From Spirochaetota bacterium (GTDB taxonomy: Bacteria; Spirochaetota; Spirochaetia; Treponematales; Rectinemataceae): 64,000 nucleotides of DNA. The notes under the pieces are model-generated. The model had not been told where the DNA came from. It made no database searches and saw nothing but the letters and a program-made list of their open reading frames with translations. A program made the position numbers and the translations under genes. The stretch spans positions 1 to 64,000 of the forward strand of contig JAJUIB010000011.1 of NCBI GenBank assembly GCA_029265615.1, written 5' to 3'. Position 1 is the stretch's first letter; every line of letters begins with the position of its first letter. This document shows, piece after piece, positions 15,415-19,348 of this stretch.

Positions 15415-15427
15415 ATCCGAGGGGGCA

Positions 15428-15476
15428 CAAGGCGTACTTAGGATGCGCTAAGCCGCGTGCCAAGCGCGAGGCCCGC
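15428..15476. repeat. 49-bp perfect repeat, copy 1
   Basis: Identical over 49 bp to 18946-18994, with a further matching CGAGGGGG just before it except for two bases. Read on the minus strand it contains the last codons of CrcB and their stop. It lies between the convergent GGDEF-EAL and barrel-protein genes. An inner CTTAG-N6-CTAAG inverted repeat could form a small hairpin. Confidence 0.85.
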
Positions 15477-15552
15477 AACACGCGCCCCTGCACAAAAAAT
15501 CGGCGGGGCGCATGCGGCACCGCCGACAGTGAGCGCCCTCGACTCCAAAGCC

Positions 15553-16455
15553 CTAATTAAGACTCAAACGCAAGCCGGCGCCGAGCGAGAATCCCGTTGT
15601 GGCATCGAGGCTCCAGGATACACCAAGGGGGAGCGCAATCTCGCCAAGCGAACATCGGCCAAGAGTGAGGGCCACCTCGCCTTCGACTGTCGCGGAAAAG
15701 AGCGAGAAATCCGCAAGGCTCGCCTCAAGACTCGCCTCGAGACGCATCGCAATGCGGCTGCCTACGGCGCCATAGAACGAGGCAAAGGCAGGAAGCGCCT
15801 CTGTCACAATGCCATCGGATGCAGTGATACGTTTGTAGCCTGCACCCATCGTCACCGCAAGCGGCAAGCCGGGATACCACGAGGACCCGATGCTCGGCGT
15901 GATTGCCAAAGAACTCGATCCATCGGCCGCAATCTCCCAGGCAATGTCGCATGAAGGCTTTATGAGCAGCTCCCCCGCCGCAACCGACGCAGCTAGCCGT
16001 CCACCCCACTCAAGATAGCCAGAAGCCCCCGAATCGTAGCGCACCCGCGGGGCAAGCTCGATGGATGCGCTACTACCGTTGACCGTGAACAATAGACCAG
16101 CGCCGGCAAGTGCTCCAGCATCAGTACGGCTACGATATCCGCCCCCTTCAAGCGAAGCGAGCGCGACGAATCCGCCTGAACCGGCAGAAAATTCAATGCG
16201 TGCGCTTCCCATACCCGTTGCCACACCATCCGCGGCATAGGCCGCCTCGCCCGACCCCGAGAGTCTCAAAGCCGAATCCGCACCAAGCGCTTCAAGAGCG
16301 GAGCTCGCCGCCGCGCGCCCGAATCCGCCGCCAATCTCGCCATAGCCACCGCCCGCCTCGATCGCGGCCGAAAAGCGCGGCACCGCTCCGCCAAGCGTCG
16401 CCGCAAGCGCAGCGAACGCGACGCCCACTATAATCTTCTTCCCTCGCATGATCAT
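15553..16455 (-). CDS. Signal-peptide, beta-barrel-like envelope protein (300 aa)
   Basis: The N terminus is a signal sequence (MIMRGKK, then VGVAFAALAATLGGA). The mature part is rich in Gly, Ser and Ala with alternating hydrophobic residues and many short strand-like segments. It ends in a strand-like GLRLSLN, as outer-membrane barrels often do. I do not recognise the family. It is the last gene of the ECF sigma operon. Its ATG overlaps the preceding stop, with GGAGG 5 nt upstream, so it is translationally coupled. An outer-membrane location is inferred from composition only. Confidence 0.6.
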   Translation of the reverse strand: MIMRGKKIIVGVAFAALAATLGGAVPRFSAAIEAGGGYGEIGGGFGRAAASSALEALGADSALRLSGSGEAAYAADGVATGMGSARIEFSAGSGGFVALASLEGGGYRSRTDAGALAGAGLLFTVNGSSASIELAPRVRYDSGASGYLEWGGRLAASVAAGELLIKPSCDIAWEIAADGSSSLAITPSIGSSWYPGLPLAVTMGAGYKRITASDGIVTEALPAFASFYGAVGSRIAMRLEASLEASLADFSLFSATVEGEVALTLGRCSLGEIALPLGVSWSLDATTGFSLGAGLRLSLN

Positions 16456-17174
16456 CGCAACCTCCGTTCAAGTTCGCGCTCGAGTCCCGCAAGCGCTACG
16501 CCCGACTCGAATATGTCGATCATGGCGCGCGCGATTCTCTCACTCGACTGCCCACGGGCGCGCCACTGGGCAAAGAGCCCCTGCAGGGAGGAAAAGCGCT
16601 CGCGGCGCATCGAGCTTCTCACAAGCGCAAGCGCAAGTTCTTGGGATAGCGCCGCATCAAGTCCATGACGAACCCTCAAGCCGAGGAGCGTCGATTCCGC
16701 AGCGAAAGCGCGACGCGCGCCTTCTTCCCCCGGACCGGCGACATCAAGACTCGCCGCGAGCGCGGAGGAGGAGGTGCCTGCGCGCAGAAGGATACTCCCC
16801 TCGGATAAAAGTGATGCTCGTGCACCATCGGACAGTTTGCGGGGCATAAGTAGCTGTACAAGCACGCCGAGCCGCACTGCCTCTTCTTCAAGCGCGGCAG
16901 CAAGACGCTCGGGCGGGATTCGCTTGCTCACCCCTTCTTTAAGACGCTCGAAAAGCGGCCCGAGCGGCACACCTGTCGCCAGGACGGCCTGAGCCGTCGT
17001 CAGCACCCGCTCACGCACCGCCACGTAGGCACGGGCCTCGGGCGCTACGTCAAACCATTCACTGAGCGCGGAAGCGCTTGTACCGCCCAGCGCCTCCGCG
17101 TGCAGATGCGGAGCCGCGACGAACGAGAGAGCCGTCGCAAGGACCAACACCCACGCACGTCCGGCTCGACGCAT
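16452..17174 (-). CDS. Secreted helical protein of unknown function (240 aa)
   Basis: Signal peptide (MRRAGRAWVLVLATALSFVA, cleavage near HAEA), then a mostly alpha-helical, Arg/Leu/Glu-rich protein with no cysteine and no motif I recognise. It lies fourth in the ECF sigma operon. Its ATG overlaps the stop of the preceding gene by one base (TGATG), with GGGAG upstream. It is probably periplasmic. Repeated short LL/LAxxL helices could mediate protein interaction, but no function can be named. Confidence 0.6.
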   Translation of the reverse strand: MRRAGRAWVLVLATALSFVAAPHLHAEALGGTSASALSEWFDVAPEARAYVAVRERVLTTAQAVLATGVPLGPLFERLKEGVSKRIPPERLAAALEEEAVRLGVLVQLLMPRKLSDGARASLLSEGSILLRAGTSSSALAASLDVAGPGEEGARRAFAAESTLLGLRVRHGLDAALSQELALALVRSSMRRERFSSLQGLFAQWRARGQSSERIARAMIDIFESGVALAGLERELERRLR

Positions 17175-17665
17175 CAGTGACGTCTCCCGGAGCCGCCTTC
17201 GTAGCGACCGCTCACCGAGCCCTTGCCCGCACGCTCACAGAGCCCAAGTTCGCTCCGGGTTCGCGTGCGTAGCTCGAGGGCAAGAGCGAGGCGTTCCGCT
17301 TCGCCGCCATCGCGGCTTCTCGTTTCAAGACGCATCCGCTGCCTGAGTTGCGAGGCAACCGCCTGGGCACTCTCGCCGAAGCGAAGCGCACGTTCGGCGC
17401 GATAGGCGTATGCGTAAGCATAACGCGCAGCATCCACAGCCTGAAGCTCGCGCCAGGCGCTCTGCCCCGCAGCCAAGGCAAGCTTCAGCGCAAGGGGCGA
17501 GGGCGTAAACCCTGCCGCACGCACTTCTGCTTCGTAGGCGACCTTAAACGCATCCCCTTCAGTTCCGAAATTTTCCTGCGCGCCCGCAAGTGTTACCGTA
17601 GCGCCCAGGAGCACAACAAAAGTCAGGCCGACTTTACCCGCACATCGTACTGCTCCATGCCTCAT
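17174..17665 (-). CDS. Secreted small protein of unknown function (163 aa)
   Basis: Signal peptide (hydrophobic VGLTFVVLLGATVTLAGA, likely cleaved before QENFG). It is followed by an Ala/Arg/Glu-rich helical domain that includes a tyrosine-rich YAYAYAYRAERAL stretch and a basic, glycine-rich tail (SGRYEGGSGRRH). No family recognised. AAGGAG lies 8 nt before ATG 17665. It lies third in the ECF sigma operon, directly after the anti-sigma gene, and so is a candidate periplasmic partner of the anti-sigma sensor domain. Confidence 0.6.
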   Translation of the reverse strand: MRHGAVRCAGKVGLTFVVLLGATVTLAGAQENFGTEGDAFKVAYEAEVRAAGFTPSPLALKLALAAGQSAWRELQAVDAARYAYAYAYRAERALRFGESAQAVASQLRQRMRLETRSRDGGEAERLALALELRTRTRSELGLCERAGKGSVSGRYEGGSGRRH

Positions 17666-17682
17666 AGAGCCTCTCCTTCGTG

Positions 17683-18303
17683 TCAGAGCTTGAGCAGACT
17701 GCTCTCGCCGCCGAATCCATCTTGGACGGTTTCAAGCCCGGCGGGATCAGGTATCCATCGTTCTCCGTCAACGACGAAGTTGTATGCATAGAGCCTGCCC
17801 TTTCGAAGTCGCACCTCAAGCTCCCAGGGACCTCCCGCGCGGGGGCGCGAAAGAGTCCACCCCGCCGGGTCCCAGCCATTGAAATCACCCGCGACGGAGA
17901 CCGTTCCGGCCTCCGGCGCCGCGAGTACAAATCGGACCGTGACGGTCTGCGCCTCCCCTCCACGGGCTGCGAACCCGAGCCCGGCCAGCGCGCAGACGAG
18001 GGCTGCCGCCGCGGCAATCCACAGCGTCCGCCGTCGACCTTCAGGCCAGGCCGCAGGCCGTAGTATCGGCCGGAACGGGAGACCAGCCATCACCGCATCC
18101 ACAAACGGCGCAGGAGGAACCGGTGCCGCTCCTGCGGACGGCAGCGCATCGCGCTCGAGGAGGGCGAGTAGTGCGCCCCACGTGTTTGCGCAGGATCCGC
18201 AGGAAAAGACGTGTTCGCGCAGGTCCTCGAGCTCCTGCGCGCCGATTCCGCCCCCCGCCGTCCATGCATCGATGGCGGCCTTGGCATCATCACAGTCCAT
18301 CAT
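17683..18303 (-). CDS. Anti-sigma factor with zinc finger, one TM segment and CBM48-like domain (206 aa)
   Basis: The N-terminal ZAS zinc-finger signature is HVFSCGSC (His31-x3-Cys35-x2-Cys38), typical of zf-HC2 anti-sigma factors that hold an ECF sigma factor. One membrane helix follows (about 92-113: TLWIAAAAALVCALAGLGF). The C-terminal domain (about 118-206) resembles the glycogen-binding/isoamylase N-domain fold (CBM48/AMPK-beta): VSVAGDFNGWDP, then W, then LYAYNFVVDGERW. Topology predicts this domain in the periplasm, where it could sense an alpha-glucan or similar ligand. It lies 23 nt after the ECF gene, with GGGAGG upstream. Sigma/anti-sigma pairing is inferred from adjacency. Confidence 0.8.
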   Translation of the reverse strand: MMDCDDAKAAIDAWTAGGGIGAQELEDLREHVFSCGSCANTWGALLALLERDALPSAGAAPVPPAPFVDAVMAGLPFRPILRPAAWPEGRRRTLWIAAAAALVCALAGLGFAARGGEAQTVTVRFVLAAPEAGTVSVAGDFNGWDPAGWTLSRPRAGGPWELEVRLRKGRLYAYNFVVDGERWIPDPAGLETVQDGFGGESSLLKL

Positions 18304-18326
18304 ATGCGTATACCTCCCGCGGGGCC

Positions 18327-18902
18327 CTACGGTTGCTGGATTTCGAAAAAATCTTTGAGTCTTGTCCGTGCGCGAAAAAGCCGGGATTTCACCGCTTCCT
18401 CAGAAATGCCAAGGATGCGGGCGACATCGGCGACCGGGAGCCCGCCATAGTAGTAAAGTTCGACGACGGCGCGCAGTTCGCGCGGCAAGAGCGCGAGGGC
18501 GTGAAGTAGCGATTCCGAAACGAGGCCACGTTCAGCCTCGCGAAGGGGATCACGGAGGTCTGCGCCGACAACATCGCTCGCCGCCGAGGACGCGGCCTTT
18601 TTTAGGCGCTCGCGCTCGCTCCTTGCGCGCGCGGAACGGGTCCGAACGCAGTTTGCGGCTATGCCGAACAGCCAGGCGGGGAAACTCTCCCCAAGGCGGA
18701 AGCGCGGGAGAAAGCGGTAAGCACGGAGCAGGACCTCTTGTGCGACGTCCTCTCCTTCCTCGAGTGAGCCAAGCCGGGCAGCACAGAAGCGCCGAAGGCG
18801 CTCGCCATAGCGCTCGACAATGCCCCGAAAGGCTTCGCGCTCGCCACCGAGGACGCGATGCACGAGGTGAAGATCATCTTCGTCATATTCCGTGCCACGC
18901 AT
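18327..18902 (-). CDS. ECF-type RNA polymerase sigma factor (about 191 aa)
   Basis: Sigma-70 family, ECF group. Region 2 has GEREAFRGIVERYGERL, EDVAQEVLLRAYRFLPRF and SFPAWLFGIAANCVRT. Region 4 has LPRELRAVVELYYYGG, ADVARILGISEEAVKSRLFRAR. It heads the operon with the CBM48-type anti-sigma factor and three exported proteins, so it probably directs an envelope response and may autoregulate. ATG 18902 (MRGTEYDEDD) fits a -10-like TATCAT (18910-18915) 7 nt upstream; ATG 18911 is an alternative start. No consensus -35 is seen, as expected for a self-recognised ECF promoter. Confidence 0.83.
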   Translation of the reverse strand: MRGTEYDEDDLHLVHRVLGGEREAFRGIVERYGERLRRFCAARLGSLEEGEDVAQEVLLRAYRFLPRFRLGESFPAWLFGIAANCVRTRSARARSERERLKKAASSAASDVVGADLRDPLREAERGLVSESLLHALALLPRELRAVVELYYYGGLPVADVARILGISEEAVKSRLFRARTRLKDFFEIQQP

Positions 18903-18945
18903 CCCCACCATGATAGCGCGGCTTCTGCGGGACTGCGAGGGGGTG

Positions 18946-18994
18946 CAAGGCGTACTTAGGATGCGCTAAGCCGCGTGCCAAGCGCGAGGCCCGC
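18946..18994. repeat. 49-bp perfect repeat, copy 2 (overlaps crcB 3' end)
   Basis: Same 49 bp as 15428-15476. This copy encodes the last 12 residues and stop of CrcB and extends 10 bp beyond it, upstream of the ECF sigma gene. Confidence 0.85.
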
Positions 18995-19348
18995 CACAAG
19001 GCCGAGCGCCGCAAGCGCAAGCCCACCGAGGTTGTCGAGAGCAATGTTCGCAAGCGCCTTTCCGAAAGCGCCACGGCGGAGGAGATCGATGGTTTCGTAG
19101 GCGTAGCTTGAAAACGTGGTGAGCCCTCCGAGAAAGCCCACGACCGCAAGCGGCTTAAGCCGTCGGCCGCCGACCTCCCGTTCCACCAGGCCGAGCGTGA
19201 GGCCGATTAGAAAGCATCCTGCATAGTTGACGATGAGCGTTCCGAAGGGAAAGGCTGCGCCGAAAACACGCGCCGAAAGACGAGAAATGAGCCAGCGGCA
19301 GGAGGCGCCGAGACCTCCCCCCAAAAACACATACACGATGTCGTGCAT
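18956..19348 (-). CDS. crcB: Fluoride exporter CrcB/Fluc (130 aa)
   Basis: Small four-helix membrane protein that exports fluoride as a dual-topology dimer. Diagnostic segments are FLGGGLGASCRWLIS, FPFGTLIVNYAGCFLIG and GFLGGLTTFSSYAYET (the TTFSS motif). Length matches the family. I place the start at MHDIVYVF (ATG 19348). Upstream codons to 19456 read through but add no conserved sequence, and a TATACT lies exactly 6 nt before this ATG. Its last codons lie within the 49-bp repeat. No fluoride riboswitch is recognised upstream. Confidence 0.88.
   Translation of the reverse strand: MHDIVYVFLGGGLGASCRWLISRLSARVFGAAFPFGTLIVNYAGCFLIGLTLGLVEREVGGRRLKPLAVVGFLGGLTTFSSYAYETIDLLRRGAFGKALANIALDNLGGLALAALGLVAGLALGTRLSAS

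Follow-up and report, generated by a model that had tools for sequence, protein, structure and literature searches.

Gene content of the sigma factor operon

The stretch of DNA analysed here, hereafter the window, comprises 64,000 nucleotides (nt) from a Spirochaetota bacterium of the family Rectinemataceae (contig JAJUIB010000011.1 of GCA_029265615.1, an assembly of 2.70 Mb that is 99.88% complete). Within it we studied a minus-strand operon (15553-18911) encoding an extracytoplasmic function (ECF) sigma factor, a membrane anti-sigma factor that ends in a carbohydrate-binding module (CBM) of family CBM48, and three exported proteins. By sequence comparison, the sigma factor, the CBM48 anti-sigma factor and one exported protein, P0004, make up a core set found in four or more bacterial phyla.

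All five open reading frames that a first-pass annotation had placed here on the minus strand were confirmed, namely the sigma factor P0002 (18327-18911), the anti-sigma factor P0001 (17683-18303), the small exported protein P0003 (17174-17665), the exported all-alpha protein P0004 (16452-17174) and the exported, beta-barrel-like P0005 (15553-16455). They are genuine genes, since the nearest relative of the window genome, a member of the same genus whose contig is titled Spirochaetaceae bacterium (L006/L126), carries all five in identical order, with identities of 59% for the anti-sigma factor, 48% for P0003, 49% for P0004 and 51% for P0005. P0002 has sigma regions 2 and 4 only, as defines an ECF sigma factor (Sigma70_r2, E = 6.6e-13; Sigma70 r4_2, E = 4.2e-17; sigma70-ECF TIGR02937, E = 4.8e-24), and its translation may in fact begin at the ATG at 18902. 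As annotated, the three exported proteins are unrecognised, none having a Pfam match. The coupling of start and stop codons described for the operon holds at the P0003/P0004 and P0004/P0005 junctions, which overlap by 1 nt and 4 nt, but not at the first two, where gaps of 23 nt (sigma/anti-sigma) and 17 nt (anti-sigma/P0003) intervene.

The anti-sigma factor carries a CBM48-type domain

The AlphaFold2 model of P0001 (predicted local distance difference test score, pLDDT, of 88.6 overall and about 97 over the CBM48 domain) consists of a ZAS-like helical part, one transmembrane helix and a beta domain. The helix (17965-18033, about residues 91-113) spans residues 91-113 in the model, with the hydropathy maximum at 92-115. 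The beta domain (17686-17949, residues 119-206) matches Pfam CBM_48 (PF02922) over residues 119-187 (E = 1.6e-7; score 32.0 bits, cutoff 22.4), and a profile built from 32 relatives retrieves the CBM structures of AMPK-beta (E ~3e-13) and the pullulanase 5ot1 (E = 1.4e-13). The best Foldseek match of the model is the glycogen-binding domain of AMPK-beta1, with a root-mean-square deviation of 1.6 Å and a TM-score of 0.89 on the target. The CBM48-type fold that had been suspected for this C-terminus, with structure prediction proposed as the check, is supported by the Pfam match, the profile match to PDB structures, the model and the structural search.

The N-terminal part holds the zinc motif H31-x3-C35-x2-C38, the Hx3Cx2C pattern that marks ZAS-type class I anti-sigma factors (zf-HC2, E = 0.0025, below the Pfam cutoff); the pattern is lost or altered in relatives from Gemmatimonadota, Myxococcota and Nitrospira. 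The orientation of the helix was read by the positive-inside rule: because an RRR stretch precedes the sole transmembrane helix, the CBM48 domain is predicted to be periplasmic, as had been proposed; this placement is backed by further members of the domain family, which stand on proteins that are exported or lipoprotein-like. The accompanying remark that CBM48 domains normally sit in cytoplasmic amylolytic enzymes needs correction; there is no such restriction, and other exported CBM48 proteins occur here.

W144 and W183 of P0001 are the equivalents of AMPK-beta1 W100 and W133. Among anti-sigma CBM48 domains, the W100 equivalent is kept in 76 of 76, the W133 equivalent in 66 of 76 and both in 66 of 76; in CBM48 domains borne by barrel proteins the two are kept in 17/17 and 15/17, respectively. 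These counts come from loci found through P0004 or through whole-protein searches, not via a CBM48 motif; a first pattern scan had used AGDFNGWD, which biases conservation in that set, and the residue counts were redone. As both AMPK-type tryptophans are kept in most anti-sigma copies, carbohydrate sensing by this domain is plausible.

The window genome holds two more CBM48 genes outside any sigma operon (G000:C32:80114-80365 and G000:C44:14299-14460; L001 and L002); one of these frames has 264 residues with an exported-like start, the other 105 residues.

P0004 is linked to the CBM48 anti-sigma factor across phyla

P0004 is modelled as helices only (pLDDT 88.5) and bears the signature GLPxxxLxxKxxEGxAKG. 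It has no Pfam match, and no PDB match was found at E ≤ 0.001; comparison with solved structures gave only weak matches to helical-repeat proteins, which were set aside. A search of 30 family genomes with P0001 yielded 18 full anti-sigma loci, and P0004 lies directly or one gene downstream of the anti-sigma gene in all 18. With an iterated profile, homologues in the corresponding position were recovered from Nitrospira, Atribacteria, Firestonebacteria, Elusimicrobia, Myxococcales and Gemmatimonadetes.

When genomes were searched with the P0004 alignment alone, matches were obtained in 24 of 393 Spirochaetota, 94 of 150 Gemmatimonadota (63%), 10 of 189 Myxococcota and 24 of 118 Nitrospirota (20%). 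A CBM48 domain is encoded on the strand of P0004, no more than about 3 kb away, in 20/20 Spirochaetota loci outside the family, 30/30 Gemmatimonadota loci, 19/19 Nitrospirota loci viewed and 8/9 further Myxococcota loci viewed; the exception, L249, has a weak P0004 match (E = 1.1e-6) and no CBM48 in view. A profile built from family members only recovers most of these loci, and reversed-sequence decoys gave no matches. This near-invariant linkage points to P0004 as the universal partner of the CBM48 anti-sigma factor, and a family that has no Pfam entry, although present in such shares of the sampled Gemmatimonadota and Nitrospirota genomes, gains a function-bearing context. The first-pass annotation had asked for a survey of whether the three exported genes are conserved with the sigma/anti-sigma pair: P0004 is, whereas P0003 and P0005 are so in close relatives only.

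Many P0004 relatives in Spirochaetota, Nitrospira and Myxococcota have a low-complexity tail of glycine and charged residues that finishes in a short basic stretch (HGKK, PGQQKK, GRGRD), a tail that P0004 of the window lacks. Several Gemmatimonadota genomes hold two to five paralogous modules (G428, for example, with L198, L203, L207-L209 and others).

A predicted sigma-dependent promoter precedes the anti-sigma gene

A motif, GCAACC-N17-GTAT, was derived from the regions upstream of the sigma gene in relatives. Its exact form GCAACC-N17-GTATM has a single site in the 2.70-Mb window genome (none for a reversed-pattern control), and this site is the predicted promoter of the anti-sigma/effector transcript (GCAACC-N17-GTATA, 18309-18336, minus strand), which ends 5 nt before the anti-sigma ATG, so that 6 nt separate GTAT from the start codon. 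Across 37 Spirochaetota loci we counted 31 sites with a spacer of 17 and 0-2 at each other spacer from 12 to 22. At the sigma/anti-sigma junction, 25 of the 26 loci of the order match at least 8 of 10 motif positions, mostly with 6 nt from GTAT to ATG. Measured from the sigma stop codon, the motif lies anywhere between -19 and +17 in the order; it is therefore conserved at the DNA level and is not a by-product of sigma coding.

The anti-sigma and effector genes therefore probably have their own sigma-dependent promoter, from which the sigma factor probably drives a leaderless mRNA. The co-transcription originally described stands in that the effectors share an operon; the anti-sigma gene and effectors are probably transcribed from this promoter as well, rather than only together with the sigma gene. 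In 30 family genomes the motif had 56 exact sites, of which 21 are at this locus and 35 elsewhere, whereas the control had 25; at this stringency any further regulon appears small.

In relatives, a second site at the locus lies 5' of a divergent exported gene, which in 4 of 10 cases tested encodes a DUF4382 lipoprotein located upstream of the sigma gene (L131 3548-4396; L174 2788-3663; L176 4013-4861; L184 2039-2872); the shared GCAACC-N17-GTAT site gives these lipoproteins a candidate regulator. The window lacks a divergent gene of this kind, and its operon stands behind crcB. The motif is absent in Gemmatimonadota, Nitrospira and Myxococcales. In L010-L018 and Gemmatimonadota loci, other motifs were enriched upstream of sigma, namely TTTAC-N16-CGTC (7/8, in close relatives and hence weak evidence) and GTGAC-N17-GGTC (10/36), which suggests that promoter recognition is lineage-specific.

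For the sigma gene itself, a TATACT-like element stands directly 5' of the start in many relatives (e.g., L135, L141 and L184) and reads TATCAT in the window (18911-18925). This suggests that the sigma gene, too, may give a leaderless mRNA, made from a housekeeping promoter. A sigma-70 promoter scan found nothing.

The barrel slot and other variable positions

Homologues of P0003 occupy the corresponding position in L126, L131, L139 and L171, and those of P0005 do so in L126, L128, L131 and L171, while L170 and L174 match P0005 more weakly; outside close relatives both slots are filled by other exported proteins. P0005 has a signal peptide and a barrel-like sequence, with no PDB or Pfam match. 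Its relatives end in outer-membrane-type C-termini such as SLSAGVKLEF, and proteins that fill the slot elsewhere have C-termini of this type. In Elusimicrobia the slot holds a SlipAM barrel (E = 4.6e-9), and in Nitrospira a Phenol_MetA_deg barrel (E = 8.4e-10) is located upstream. In Gemmatimonadota and Myxococcota the barrel-like neighbour often carries the same CBM48 domain at its C-terminus; Nitrospira and some Spirochaetota have an extra, small, separate CBM48 protein instead, which is exported in Nitrospira.

Profile comparison detected no homology of P0005 to the Gemmatimonadota or Myxococcota barrels, P0003 showed none to other genes of its slot, and a weak resemblance of P0004 to one gene of the P0003 slot is not claimed. 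One genus has exported Metal_resist (Spy/CpxP-like) proteins after P0004 (L129 7499-8778, and the same place in L132, L133 and L136), and in L129, L132 and L133 a second sigma factor also follows P0004.

Proposed function and alternatives

The best explanation, which we hold to be moderately likely, is a local envelope-surveillance ECF circuit with a CBM48 sensor. The cytoplasmic ZAS domain of the anti-sigma factor would tether the sigma factor at the inner membrane, and the periplasmic CBM48 domain would monitor either an endogenous envelope glycan or whether its partner proteins have glycan bound. A change in occupancy would make the anti-sigma factor let go, probably, we infer, by stepwise proteolysis. 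The freed sigma factor would then transcribe the leaderless mRNA for the anti-sigma factor, P0004, P0003 and the barrel-like P0005 from GCAACC-N17-GTAT, and the anti-sigma factor made from it would provide negative feedback; in relatives, the divergent exported gene or lipoprotein would respond through the same promoter. We favour this circuit because the CBM48 assignment is well supported, the tryptophans are kept, searches with P0004 alone arrive at CBM48 loci, there is a single conserved promoter and CBM48 also occurs on barrels and, in Nitrospira, on a separate exported protein. The matches of barrel-slot proteins to outer-membrane barrel families in distant phyla and the Spy/CpxP-like proteins after P0004 in one genus also speak for it. 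More tentatively, the modules of Spirochaetota, Gemmatimonadota, Nitrospirota, Myxococcota and several candidate phyla could form a class of trans-envelope signalling systems in which the inner-membrane anti-sigma factor and the outer-membrane barrel share CBM48 and P0004 passes on or modulates the signal that runs from one to the other, a possibility we regard as doubtful.

Several findings weigh against the surveillance circuit. The window domain shares its fold and both main glucan-binding tryptophans with the CBM48 of AMPK-beta (AMPK1_CBM, PF16561; CBM_48), from which it differs in standing on a bacterial transmembrane anti-sigma factor and in that the Lys126 equivalent is not conserved in the CBM48 copies; that of Asn150 is only partly so, and the W100 equivalent may be kept partly for structural reasons. 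The promoter motif was not found at the anti-sigma gene in 12 more distant loci of Spirochaetota, which lie outside the order, and it was sought as near-exact matches only, so weaker targets could exist. The barrel proteins of different phyla show no detectable homology to each other, and it is thus the slot, not the protein, that is conserved.

The incomplete conservation of glucan-binding residues besides the tryptophans is also what would be expected under the main rival, in which CBM48 serves to dock a protein, either P0004 or the barrel, and P0004 acts as a co-regulator signalling the state of the outer membrane. Models for such docking are RseB, which binds RseA, and FecA, which contacts FecR. 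The near-invariant linkage of P0004 to the CBM48 anti-sigma factor would fit it, as would the domain shared by anti-sigma factor and barrel in two phyla, which recalls cell-surface signalling. However, both carbohydrate-type tryptophans are strongly kept, in the barrels as well, and P0004 does not match RseB; we consider docking rather unlikely.

Less probable still is a polysaccharide-utilisation switch like RsgI/SigI, with CBM48 recognising external alpha-glucans and the sigma factor inducing their uptake or degradation. CBM-bearing anti-sigma factors do exist in this role (RsgI, PMC12203970) and CBM48 is typical of alpha-glucan proteins, but neither a glycosidase nor a sugar transporter was seen in the operons, the predicted regulon holds little beyond the operon and the divergent exported gene, and a periplasmic domain would meet only small imported glucans, which together make this reading improbable. 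That an ordinary ECF operon adjoins unrelated exported genes by chance is very improbable: it would agree with the limited conservation of P0003 and P0005, for which alone it could hold, and is refuted for P0004 by a near-absolute linkage in four phyla with no decoy matches, beside the conserved promoter at the anti-sigma start.

The surveillance circuit would provide a diderm ECF system, open to experiment, in which a glycan of the envelope may be sensed through an AMPK-type glycogen-binding domain, and, given the single predicted promoter and the compact operon, the whole circuit can be tested in a heterologous host.

Relation to known systems

In the RseA/RseB/RpoE envelope-stress system, a membrane anti-sigma factor likewise has a periplasmic domain, an exported third component is encoded in the same operon and the output concerns the envelope. 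The window system differs in its CBM48 sensor and all-alpha P0004, and we found no RseA or RseB domain in P0001, nor in P0004 and its 31 relatives.

With FecI/FecR/FecA, of which FecR-type LIC_12756/LIC_12757 occur in Leptospira (PMC12155086), it shares an ECF sigma factor, a single-pass anti-sigma factor and an adjoining outer-membrane protein, and in some phyla a domain type common to anti-sigma factor and barrel. Here, however, the shared domain is CBM48 and the barrel is not a recognised TonB receptor; P0001 has no Pfam match to FecR, and P0005 no Pfam match.

The nearest precedent is the polysaccharide-sensing RsgI/SigI system of Clostridium thermocellum, whose CBM-bearing RsgI proteins are also single-pass anti-sigma factors that bind sigma through a cytoplasmic part and end, beyond the membrane, in a carbohydrate-binding module (PMC12203970). 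That Gram-positive system combines a non-ECF sigma factor with RsgI_N and CBM3, CBM42, PA14 or GH10 domains and controls cellulosome genes (PMC12203970), whereas the window system has an ECF sigma factor rather than SigI, a ZAS domain, CBM48 and a predicted output of envelope proteins in diderm bacteria, with no Pfam match to the RsgI N-terminal domain.

A survey of class I anti-sigma domains reports that accessory domains are group-specific (PMC7406223). Our full-text literature search, which covered article text, found no description of the set of sigma factor, CBM48 anti-sigma factor and P0004, although earlier cataloguing of the group in the tables of that survey is possible; this agrees with the statement in the first-pass annotation that no function is known to have been described for such a set.

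Flanking repeat and operon ends

A 63-nt direct repeat bounds the operon exactly, with a left copy at 15418-15480 that is 95% identical to the right copy at 18936-18998, which holds the 3' end of crcB; the genome contains these two copies only. Different genes surround the operon in the same-genus relative, and crcB is not near it there. The exact flanking repeat together with these other neighbours suggests that the operon moved as a unit, by insertion or duplication. No integrase was seen in the operon. Downstream of P0005, a terminator candidate at about 15494-15525, with a stem and T6, is plausible by eye and not significant (z -0.66).

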